NCBI RefSeq assembly: GCF_003574315.2
Contig: NZ_AP025739.1
Location: 6,634,001-6,698,000 of the forward strand
Origin: Capsulimonas corticalis
GTDB lineage: Bacteria > Armatimonadota > Armatimonadia > Armatimonadales > Capsulimonadaceae
Length of the DNA stretch: 64,000 nucleotides
Direction: 5' to 3'
Numbering within the stretch: the first letter of the stretch is position 1; each line of letters opens with the position of its first letter. Below, piece after piece: positions 3,534 through 50,179 of the stretch. The notes under the pieces were generated by a model. That model was not told the origin of the DNA and ran no database searches. It saw nothing but the letters and a program-made list of their open reading frames with translations. The position numbers were made by a program, and so were the translations under genes.

Positions 3534-3575
3534 TATAATCCTTAGCGATCATCCATAAAATCGTAAACGATTACG
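3534..3575 (+). promoter_or_regulatory. Promoter -10 and LacI-type operator of the GH20 gene
   Basis: A perfect TATAAT sits at 3534-3539 with no good -35 at the usual distance. CGTAAACGATTACG at 3562-3575 has half-sites CGTAA and TTACG around a central CG, the geometry of LacI/GalR-family operators. The identical 14-mer is found at 48744-48757 before the GH18 gene. It lies 22 nt after the -10, where a bound repressor would block elongation or initiation. Confidence 0.7.
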
Positions 3576-3590: not shown

Positions 3591-5552
3591 ATGTTCAACC
3601 CTGCTCGACCTTCTCTGATCGCCGCCCTGATCCTCGCCGCCATCGCCACGCCCGTTTGCGCGCAAACGGCGCAGCTGCTACCCGTTCCCTCGGAGACGGT
3701 CTGGAAATCCGGCAGGCTGGCGCTGAGCAGCCAGTTCCATATCTCGCTGCGCGGAGCGCGAGACGCGCGGGTAAGCGCGGCGGCGCGGCGTCTGCTCCTC
3801 ACGTCGGCGCATGAGACAGGTCTGCCGATCTCGCCGGTCGTTTTGGATGCAAAGAGCAATGCGGCTCTGATTATCCAATGCGACAAAATCGGCCCGGCGA
3901 CGCAAACCGCGCAGGATGACGAGTCCTACACGCTGGACGTGACGAAGCGCGGCGCGGCGCTCAGCGCCCCCGGCCCGCTCGGCGTGATGCACGGGCTGGA
4001 AACGTTCCGGCAGCTCATTGCGCGCGACGGCTCACGCTTTTATCTGCCCGCCGTGCATATCTACGACGCGCCCCGTTTTCCGTGGCGCGGATTGATGATC
4101 GATGTGTCGCGGCACTGGATGCCGGTGAGCGCAATCGAGCGCAATCTGGATCAGATGGCGCAGTTCAAGCTGAACGTCTTCCACTGACACCTTTCCGACG
4201 ATCAGGGATTTCGCATGGAGAGCAAAGTCTTCCCGAAGCTTCAGAAGATGGGCGGCGAAGGGCAGTTCTACACGCAGAACGAGGTGAAGGCGATCGTGTC
4301 GTACGCCCGCGACCGGGGAATCCGAGTCGTGCCCGAATTCGATATTCCCGGGCACACCACGGCGCTGCTCGCCGGATATCCGGAACTGGCGAGCGCGCCC
4401 GGTCCTTACGCCGTCAAGCATACGTGGGGAGTTCACGACGCCACTCTCGATCCGACAAACGAGAAGGTCTATGCGTTCCTCGACACGTTCTTCGGCGAAG
4501 TGTCCAAGCTCTTTCCGGACCATTACGTGCATATCGGCGGGGATGAAGTGAACGGCAAGCAGTGGAGCGCAAGCCCCAGGATCCAGGCGTTCATGACGGC
4601 GCGCCGCTTCGCGAATAACGACGCGCTGCAAGCGTACTTCAACCGGCGCGTGATCGAGATTCTGCGCCGTCACGGCAAGGCCATGATCGGGTGGGACGAG
4701 ATCATCGCGCCCGGCATGCCGGCGACCACCGTGGCCCAGTCGTGGCGCGGCAAGGATTCTCTGGCAACGTCGGTCGGCGCGGGATACTTTGCGATCCTCT
4801 CCAAAGGTTACTATCTGGACAACGCCCTTTCGGCGGCGGAGATGTACGCGAACGATCCGACCGCCGGCCCGATCGCCTCGCTGCCGAGCGCGGACCAAGC
4901 CCGGGTGCTCGGCGGCGAAGCGTGCATGTGGACGGAGCATGTGACGCCCAAAACGCTCAATCGGCGCGTCTGGCCGCGCGCCGCCGCCGTCGCCGAACGT
5001 CTCTGGTCTCCCGCAAGCGTCACCGACGCCGGCGATCTCGCCCGTCGTCTGAGCCGATGGTCGCCCATTCGGACCGCGCCGCAAACTCCCTTTCACGGAA
5101 CGCCGTCCGCCATTCCCGGCGTGATCGAATCGGAGGACTACGACAACGGCGGCGAAGGCGTCTCCTATCACGACACGGATGGCGTCGATACCGGCCAGGG
5201 CTACCGGGAAGACGAAGCGGTCGATGTGGAGCCGTTCGGCGACGGGCGCCGCTTCGATGTCGGCTATACTCGCCCGGGCCAGTGGCTAAAATATACCGTC
5301 ACAGTGGCGGCGGCGGGCGCTTACGACCTCAATGTGCGCGTCTCATCTGGGGAAGCAGGCGGCGTGTTTCACGTGGAGGATGGGAGCGGAGCCAACCTCA
5401 CGGGACCGATGACCGCGCCCGCCACGGGCGGCTGGGACACGTGGACGCTGGTCCACGCCTCCGTCCATCTGCAGGCTGGCCGCAGCGTGCTCAAATTCGT
5501 CGAGGATACCGGAGGATATAATCTGGACTCGATGACGTTCACACATCCGTAA
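3591..5552 (+). pseudogene. GH20 beta-N-acetylhexosaminidase with CBM6-like domain, interrupted by in-frame TGA
   Basis: Reading straight through gives 653 residues in a single frame, broken only by TGA at 4185-4187 (codon 199). The break falls inside the GH20 motif that normally reads HWHLSDDQGFR: the sequence gives H-stop-HLSDDQGFR, so TGA stands in for TGG (Trp). Upstream are a signal peptide (to about residue 24, ending VCAQT) and the GH20 N-terminal domain. Downstream are the TIM barrel with catalytic pair Asp318-Glu319 in HIGGDEVNGKQ, and a CBM6-like module at about 510-653. An AAAGG site lies 6 nt before the ATG. The enzyme would release terminal GlcNAc from chitin oligomers. Everything else is well conserved, so this is either a very recent nonsense mutation, a base-calling error or read-through; two separate ORFs (3591-4187 and 4215-5552) are the literal reading. 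Confidence 0.88.
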
Positions 5553-9205: not shown

Positions 9206-9269
9206 TTGACAGCTCCCAAGGTCCATGTTATAATACGATCAAATAGGCCCAGATATACCATATGGACCA
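9206..9269 (+). promoter_or_regulatory. Consensus promoter with GGTCCA elements before the pseudopilin
   Basis: TTGACA at 9206-9211, a 17-nt spacer and TATAAT at 9229-9234. A GGTCCA hexamer lies inside the spacer (9220-9225), and the inverse TGGACCA is at 9263-9269 just after the expected start site. Two further TGGTCCA copies lie at 9038-9044 and 9120-9126 nearer the divergent regulator. These look like operator half-sites. Confidence 0.7.
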
Positions 9270-9297
9270 TTTTCGTAATCATCGAAGGAGAGAACCG

Positions 9298-10161
9298 TTG
9301 AAAAAGACATTCCAAAAAGGTTTCACGCTGATCGAACTGCTCGTAGTTATTGCCATCATTGCGATTCTCGCCGCAATCCTCTTCCCAGTCTTTGCCCAGG
9401 CAAGGGAGAAGGCGCGCGCTATTGCGTGCTTGTCGAACATGAAGCAGTTGGCGCTCGGCACCATGCAGTATTCGCAAGACAATGATGAGAAATGCGCCGA
9501 CGGCACCGAGGTTAACGGCCTGGGATCAGGATGGGCTTGGCAGATCTATCCTTATGTCAAGAGCGCAGGAGTTTTCAAGTGTCCTGACGAATCCTCCCCG
9601 CAATCGCAGAAGGGGCGTCCTAGTTCTTACGGATACAACCGGAACTGCGCTGTCTATACACAAGGCGGCCCGCCGGATGGCCGTAGCCTCGCGGGATTCA
9701 CCTCACCGGCCAAGACGGTTCTGCTTTTCGAAGTGACTCAGAGCGGCTATTATGATATCACCGTCACCACTTCGCCGGGCGCGGATGGTATGAACAGCGA
9801 TAATAATATTTACGGCGGCTCGATGGCTGGATGCGGACTTGGCGGTCAGTGGGACATGGTCGGCTACAACACCCACTTTTCTACAACAGCTACAGCCGAC
9901 AATGTTAAGTACGCAACCGGCTATCTTCGCAATTCCGATCCATCTGCCGCCGGCAAGGCCGACTTCACCGGCGTAACGGGACGTCACACTGGCGGCTCCA
10001 ACTACTGCATGGCCGATGGACACGCTAAGTTCTTCCTCGGCGCGCATGTGTCCGGGGGATATCCTAACGGCGTTTCCGGCGACTGCGGAACTCCCGGGAA
10101 TACCGCTTCTACCGTAGATTGCGCGGACGGCACAATTGCCGCCACGTTCAATATCAACTAG
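9298..10161 (+). CDS. DUF1559-type pseudopilin (type II/IV prepilin-like)
   Basis: A 287-residue protein. The start is TTG 9298 because AAGGAG lies 7 nt upstream. The N-terminus has the prepilin peptidase site [14 protein letters not shown], with cleavage expected after Gly and the Glu at +5, followed by a hydrophobic helix and [12 protein letters not shown]. The C-terminal domain ends with the DUF1559 pattern [10 protein letters not shown] (usually a DGHV/DGHAK motif). Such proteins are exported and probably assembled by a type II secretion/pilus machine. A hairpin separates it from the downstream amylase. The function of individual members is unknown. Confidence 0.92.
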
Positions 10162-48706: not shown

Positions 48707-48758
48707 TTGACAGAAGAGACAGGGCGCCCTATAATGCCATTACCGTAAACGATTACGG
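48707..48758 (+). promoter_or_regulatory. Promoter and LacI-type operator of the GH18 gene
   Basis: TTGACA (48707-48712), 17 nt, TATAAT (48730-48735), then CGTAAACGATTACG at 48744-48757 flanked by C and G. The operator lies 8 nt after the -10, over the likely start site, an ideal repressor position. The 14-mer is identical to that before GH20. Confidence 0.85.
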
Positions 48759-48802: not shown

Positions 48803-50179
48803 ATGAAGCCGCTTTGTTGCCTTTGTTTGTTCTTTCTCGCAGTTGTGTCCGGTCACGCGCAAAAAATCGCTGGCGGTCACCCCTCCGCGCCCAAATTTCG
48901 GATCGCCGCTTATGTGCCCGAATATCGAATTCTCGCGCTGAATCCGGACTTCGTCTCTCACATCACCGATTTGATATTCTTCTCCCTGGAGCCAACGCCG
49001 GACGGCGGCATTGACCGTTCGCGGCTGACTCCGGCGATGGAGGCGAAACTCGCAGCGATCAAGCGGCGTTACCCCGTGCGAATGATCGCCGCCTTCGGCG
49101 GCGCGGACCGCTCGCAGTCGTTCGCGGCGATGGCGACCGACGCCGGGCGCCGCCGGCGTTTTATCACGAATCTCACCCGATTTCTGACCGACCATGGATT
49201 TGAAGGGGTCGATTATGACTGGGAGTTCCCCGACAACCCGGCGGAGAAAAACGGGCTGACGGCGCTGGTCGTCGAAACAAAGCGAGCCCTGTCGCCGCTT
49301 GGCTTGCAGGTCAGCGTCGCCACCGCGCCGGGAGATTGGTTCGACAGGAAGCTCATCGCCGCCGTCGATCAGTTCAACCTGATGTCCTACTATGACGACG
49401 CGCACCGGGGCGGTCTGGCCGTTTCTCAGTCCGACGTCGATCATTTGATTCGTAACGGCGCGAAGCCCGGCCAGATTTCTCTCGGCCTTCCCTTCTTCGC
49501 CGAAAGCCTCATGACGGGCAGTGACGAAGAAACGTTTTACGCCAAGCTTGCCGAGAAATATCATCCCAAGCCAAAAGAAGACGCCGCTGGCGATTACGTG
49601 TTCAACGGAGTGCAGACCGTCATGGACAAGACCCAGTACGCGCTCGACCGCCGCCTGGGCGGCGTCATGATCTTCGAGCTCGCGCAGGACACACCAGACG
49701 GCGCGCTCTCCAAAGCCATCCACAAAACGGTCGATCCCTCCCCCGACCTGCTGAGTCCCGAAGCCGACGGAACGTATCTCTTGACAGCGGACAACGCCGC
49801 GCTCGACGGCCCGGCGGCGCGCGTCGAGACCTCGGACGGCGTCTCCGACATCGGCTACTGGACCAGCATCGACGACCGCACCCGCTGGAAGATCGACGTT
49901 CCCCCCACCCGCGCCGGCATCTACGCCATGTCCCTGGAATACGCCTGCGCCCCACGCTACGCCGGCAGCGCTCTCACCCTGACCTTCAACGGGGCCCAGC
50001 GTCAAACATTCACTCTGACCGTCACCGCGACCAAAGACTGGGACACATTCCAAACCATCCCGCTTCCAGGCCATGTCACGCTCAAAGCCGGCCAGACGAC
50101 CATCCAGATGCAGGCAAAAACGCTTCCCAGCGGCGACCTCATCAACTTACGCCACGTGATACTCACGCCGATGCCTTAA
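48803..50179 (+). CDS. GH18 chitinase-like enzyme with C-terminal carbohydrate-binding-like domain
   Basis: A 458-residue protein with a signal peptide ending GHAQ. The GH18 catalytic motif is GVDYDWE (first position Glu134 in place of the usual Asp; Asp137, Asp139, Glu141). The barrel ends near 320; from about 330 a beta-sandwich (LTLTFNGAQRQTFTLTVTATK, quoted in pieces) resembles a carbohydrate-binding module. AGGAG precedes the ATG. It should cleave chitin or GlcNAc-containing glycans. Confidence 0.88.
   Translation: MKPLCCLCLFFLAVVSGHAQKIAGGHPSAPKFRIAAYVPEYRILALNPDFVSHITDLIFFSLEPTPDGGIDRSRLTPAMEAKLAAIKRRYPVRMIAAFGGADRSQSFAAMATDAGRRRRFITNLTRFLTDHGFEGVDYDWEFPDNPAEKNGLTALVVETKRALSPLGLQVSVATAPGDWFDRKLIAAVDQFNLMSYYDDAHRGGLAVSQSDVDHLIRNGAKPGQISLGLPFFAESLMTGSDEETFYAKLAEKYHPKPKEDAAGDYVFNGVQTVMDKTQYALDRRLGGVMIFELAQDTPDGALSKAIHKTVDPSPDLLSPEADGTYLLTADNAALDGPAARVETSDGVSDIGYWTSIDDRTRWKIDVPPTRAGIYAMSLEYACAPRYAGSALTLTFNGAQRQTFTLTVTATKDWDTFQTIPLPGHVTLKAGQTTIQMQAKTLPSGDLINLRHVILTPMP

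Follow-up and report, generated by a model that had tools for sequence, protein, structure and literature searches.

In-frame stop codons are a widespread feature of bacterial genes that remain under purifying selection, and they do not usually persist for long (PMC7918605). Among the three stop codons, UGA is the leakiest in Escherichia coli, where it is mostly read as Trp (PMC11126739). The extent of this misreading depends on the species; at one UGA reporter, read-through has been reported to be about 12% in E. coli, whereas two Pseudomonas species gave 0.08% and 0.04% (PMC9481147). A different way of reading such a codon is the A-to-I editing of the mRNA, which in bacteria requires the motif UACG (PMC12255301). 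Here we describe a single in-frame TGA in a GH20 beta-N-acetylhexosaminidase gene of Capsulimonas corticalis. The gene lies in a window of 64,000 nucleotides (the whole stretch of DNA that was analysed), which corresponds to positions 6634001–6698000 of a single-contig genome of 7,645,051 bases; coordinates are those of the window unless the genome is named.

The gene is located on the forward strand (3591–5552) and was recognized by reading of the frame, by a genome search and by Pfam. It has a signal-peptide-like start and its frame, of 654 codons, runs from an ATG at 3591 to a TAA at 5550–5552, being open except for a TGA at 4185–4187 (codon 199, read directly and by alignment) in the context LNVFH-TGA-HLSDDQGFR. 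This lone break had been noticed in a previous sequence-only reading, and the whole-genome search agrees with it, since the same frame was recorded there with one TGA inside. Three Pfam domains are found in the read-through frame: Glyco_hydro_20b at 3672–4070 (residues 28–160, E 9.9e-12), the GH20 catalytic domain (PF00728, Glyco_hydro_20) at 4077–5012 (residues 163–474, E 8.8e-98), which contains the stop, and a CBM6 domain (CBM_6) at 5202–5546 (residues 538–652, E 3.3e-18). The alignment places the motif GGDE at residues 316–319, and its Asp318–Glu319 (codons at 4542–4547) are the catalytic pair, a role that is established for GH20. With PF00728 and GGDE, the read-through frame belongs to the GH20 beta-N-acetylhexosaminidases, and the catalytic pair, most of the barrel and the CBM6-like domain are indeed present 3′ of the stop, in line with that reading. 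Two adjacent genes were considered and ruled out; Glyco_hydro_20 matches as one stretch across the stop, and this is therefore a single gene. The product of normal termination is 198 amino acids long and ends before the catalytic pair. Because this pair is encoded 119–120 codons downstream of the TGA, the domain layout predicts that the 198-residue product would be inactive as a GH20 enzyme. A mechanical listing of open reading frames also gives a candidate restart ORF of 445 amino acids 3′ of the stop (4215–5552, forward strand), whose product would lack the beginning of the barrel as well as domain 2 and the signal peptide.

Codon 199 is TGG both in the ortholog of a genome of the same genus (G001, 65% identical) and in a homologue from a Gemmatimonadaceae MAG (L026, 48% identical). 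Internal stops are present in none of the homologues listed from 60 relatives, and among them the stop is private to this lineage. The simplest history would be one G-to-A transition from TGG; of the 56 transitions by which a stop could arise in this gene, 15 are TGG-to-TGA changes, which makes this a common route. The Trp had been presented as near-invariant in GH20, which proved overstated. The two other full GH20 paralogs of the same genome have Leu at this column (one encoded by CTG, one by CTC), as do several other relatives, and across the family the column reads as W or L in the sequences aligned.

As far as can be judged from substitution patterns, the codons 3′ of the stop are constrained as much as those 5′ of it. 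In the comparison with G001, dN/dS is 0.277 for residues 25–198, 0.180 for residues 199–489 and 0.156 for residues 490–652, which are rough values with synonymous sites near saturation. When replacements were polarized with L026 as outgroup, the GH20 gene and its G001 ortholog showed 13 versus 15 lineage-specific replacements before the stop, and 16 versus 17 after it. Relaxed selection 3′ of the stop, the mark of a nonsense pseudogene, was not detected by either measure, and the frame has no further stop or frameshift 3′ of the TGA; under a simple model, a second stop would be expected with 95% probability after about 0.05 neutral substitutions per site. Ordinary decay through the loss of more conserved residues downstream, raised earlier as the alternative to a recent change, is not seen. 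Because the post-stop codons are equally constrained and carry no excess of lineage-specific replacements, the stop would have arisen after nearly all of the divergence from the nearest genome had accumulated. The lack of detectable relaxation means therefore that the lesion is young, or is absent from the DNA of the cell, or that the product is still made; selection tests do not tell apart a young lesion, a base error and a continued product. Such a lack dates the lesion rather than excluding a pseudogene, because it is what is expected for a very young lesion.

The region upstream of the gene had been described as carrying an intact promoter and operator. The operator part stands, in the form of a candidate LacI-type palindrome, GTAAACGATTAC, found by pattern search at 3563–3574. 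The promoter part stands only partly: a perfect TATAAT, read directly on the forward strand at 3534–3539, is a possible −10 element with a weak −35 element at the right distance, and the consensus scan called no promoter at this place. An identical GTAAACGATTAC is found at 48745–48756, 46 bases upstream of a GH18 gene (48803–50179) with a sub-threshold CBM6 match, and the pattern GTAANCGNTTAC has 17 matches in the genome versus 7 for the reversed control. These sites suggest a common LacI-type control of chitin/GlcNAc enzymes, which would form one regulon. Separately, it was observed that 8 of the 17 sites of GTAANCGNTTAC cluster at 1278–1300 kb of the genome, near GH20-like and alpha-L-fucosidase ORFs.

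True recoding, either by reassignment of UGA to Trp, by a suppressor or selenocysteine tRNA, or by A-to-I editing that turns UGA into UGI (read as UGG), would place at this codon the very residue found in the nearest relatives; however, the genetic code of this bacterium is standard and nothing supports recoding. None of the marks of a UGA = Trp code (TGA no longer a terminator, RF2 lost, a tRNA-Trp(UCA)) is found: RF2 is present with a profile score above the cut-off, and the terminators of 1,095 well-supported genes in 2.458 Mb are TAA (434), TGA (362) and TAG (299). TGA also ends four neighbouring genes (7256, 13054, 32512, 48660), terminators that are real and from which a changed code had already been considered unlikely, a judgement that these data bear out. 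The genome has 73 tRNA matches, 72 of them with a callable anticodon (ARAGORN), and the suppressor tRNA-Trp (UCA) proposed as a check does not appear, no stop anticodon being found among these 72; the 73rd match is a 3′ fragment. This fragment (genome 6918068–6918126), in which the anticodon loop reads by eye as Val CAC, is perhaps the att-site remnant of an integrated element. A CCA anticodon occurs in two matches, the ordinary tRNA-Trp at genome position 4504837 and a tRNA with a long variable arm, the second of which is a point in favour of recoding. On the other hand, position 24 in the D-arm of the tRNA-Trp is G and not the A of the Hirsh-type suppressor. The long-variable-arm tRNA is found at 1211369–1211453 inside a dense array of about 20 tRNA genes (genome 1204505–1213169), perhaps on a mobile element. 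For selenocysteine, SelB gave no match above the cut-off in the genome and tRNA-Sec(UCA) is likewise missing from the called anticodons. As for editing, the best match to the TadA model reaches 40.8 bits versus a cut-off of 150 bits, the tRNA-Arg anticodon is GCG with none called as ACG, and the organism may be without inosine-34 tRNA editing; moreover, the sequence at the site is UGAC and the UACG motif is absent. A changed code, a suppressor tRNA, selenocysteine and TadA editing were each tested and set aside, and true recoding is very improbable.

Other stop-interrupted genes of the genome help to weigh the remaining explanations. A coding-potential scan of 2.458 Mb (about one third of the genome), which looked for stops flanked on both sides by same-frame coding sequence and counted in-frame stops, not frameshift lesions, gave 16 and then 37 candidates, nearly all of which were, by inspection, tandem or neighbouring genes or antisense shadows. 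Two candidates were left as stop-interrupted genes, the GH20 gene and one amino-acid permease, and these are the candidates on which Pfam was run. The permease (PF13520; genome 7080001–7081839, minus strand) has two in-frame TGAs and is otherwise open; its N-terminal frame looks, by eye, shifted too. An intact paralog (73%) is present at genome positions 209027–210865 and an ortholog in G001, and in both of them the TGAs align with Leu (CTG) and Arg (CGC). Since these TGAs stand at Leu and Arg positions, TGA is not generally acting as Trp, and a genome-wide reading of this kind was ruled out; with its intact paralog and its TGAs at non-Trp positions, the permease gene shows that this genome does acquire lesions of the stop type. 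Nevertheless, internal stops are rare, with none in 76 ABC-transporter matches and none in the SBP_bac_10 matches listed. The SBP_bac_10/DUF1559 family is very large in this bacterium, with more than 150 matches, one of them at 9262–10161. The rarity of internal stops argues against a generally error-prone consensus, although a single wrong base is still compatible with it. A consensus-base error in the assembly, with the gene intact in the cell, would explain why the gene is perfect but for one substitution and shows no relaxed selection, but the genome is one finished-looking contig and the sole other stop-interrupted gene in 2.46 Mb carries two stops; altogether, such an error is unlikely, yet it deserves serious consideration. 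A physiologically useful read-through, in which the ordinary tRNA-Trp decodes UGA-C often enough to yield some enzyme and the remainder of the gene is maintained by selection, finds support in the strong conservation after the stop, in the leakiness of UGA in E. coli, where it exceeds that of the other stops and leads mainly to Trp (PMC11126739), the residue that is ancestral at this codon, and in the wide occurrence of in-frame stops under purifying selection (PMC7918605). It is nonetheless improbable, as the stop is in none of the homologues listed from relatives, the stretches starting at the stop fold no better than shuffles (z-scores 0.99, 0.87, and 0.05), Rfam shows nothing relevant at the locus, the other TGA case of the genome is not at Trp, and UGA read-through rates differ greatly among species (PMC9481147). 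Slightly more doubtful is the idea that the cell tolerates or retains the stop as a kind of dial, the misreading of UGA-C as Trp giving a low, condition-dependent level of a regulated chitin/GlcNAc enzyme. Published rates make some residual full-length enzyme possible, without providing a figure for this organism.

The explanation favoured, with a probability of about 0.64, is a very recent nonsense mutation of the Trp codon TGG to TGA that inactivates the GH20 gene. The sequence-only reading had listed a recent nonsense mutation, a consensus error and programmed read-through as options; all three are supported as such, the first of them ranking highest, whereas programmed read-through, although kept, is lowered by the lack of a recoding element and of any relative sharing the stop. 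According to the nonsense-mutation model, the gene would have coded before the lesion for a functional, regulated and probably secreted GH20 beta-N-acetylhexosaminidase. RF2 would now terminate translation at codon 199, releasing a 198-residue fragment that stops short of the catalytic Asp–Glu and of the greater part of the barrel. Full-length enzyme would arise only where the ordinary tRNA-Trp(CCA) misreads the UGA at a background level, inserting by chance the ancestral Trp. The rest of the gene would still look selected because too little time has passed since the mutation for decay. The stop, the Trp codon of the nearest relatives, the conservation 3′ of the stop and the standard termination machinery are direct observations; a real base, transcription of the gene and a low level of read-through are what we infer. 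The loss may be tolerated, since two other full GH20 genes are kept in the genome. Two observations count against this explanation: a consensus error would account equally well for a gene in which all but one base is intact, and conservation after the stop is also expected if the full-length protein is still made.

The interruption is truly present in the sequence and is of an ordinary kind; it offers no sign of a changed genetic code. Provided that the base is real, the gene is a clean example of one caught just after inactivation, and it could be used to ask whether genes with young UGA lesions retain some function, for which it is well suited because background misreading of UGA inserts the ancestral Trp; if the base is not real, the result is an annotation correction. 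Regarding known systems, TadA A-to-I editing (PMC12255301) resembles this case in that the change of A to I in UGA would restore the reading as Trp, and differs from it in the absence here of UACG at the site, of a TadA above the cut-off and of a called tRNA-Arg(ACG). The read-through of UGA by tRNA-Trp in E. coli (PMC11126739, PMC9481147) is closer, as the codon is the same and Trp is both the expected misreading residue and the ancestral one; however, no enhancing element was found here, and the rates in different species are orders of magnitude apart. With respect to GH20 beta-N-acetylhexosaminidases (best PDB sequence match 6yhh), the gene, when read through, has the same domain order, catalytic Asp–Glu and surrounding motif, whereas the stop ahead of the catalytic pair and the C-terminal CBM6 set it apart. 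Finally, unlike the cases surveyed among young nonsense pseudogenes (PMC7918605), the TGA is known here from one genome only, but the gene shares with them a single in-frame stop with the rest of the sequence under purifying selection and, as a carbohydrate-metabolism gene, falls in a category that is common in that survey.
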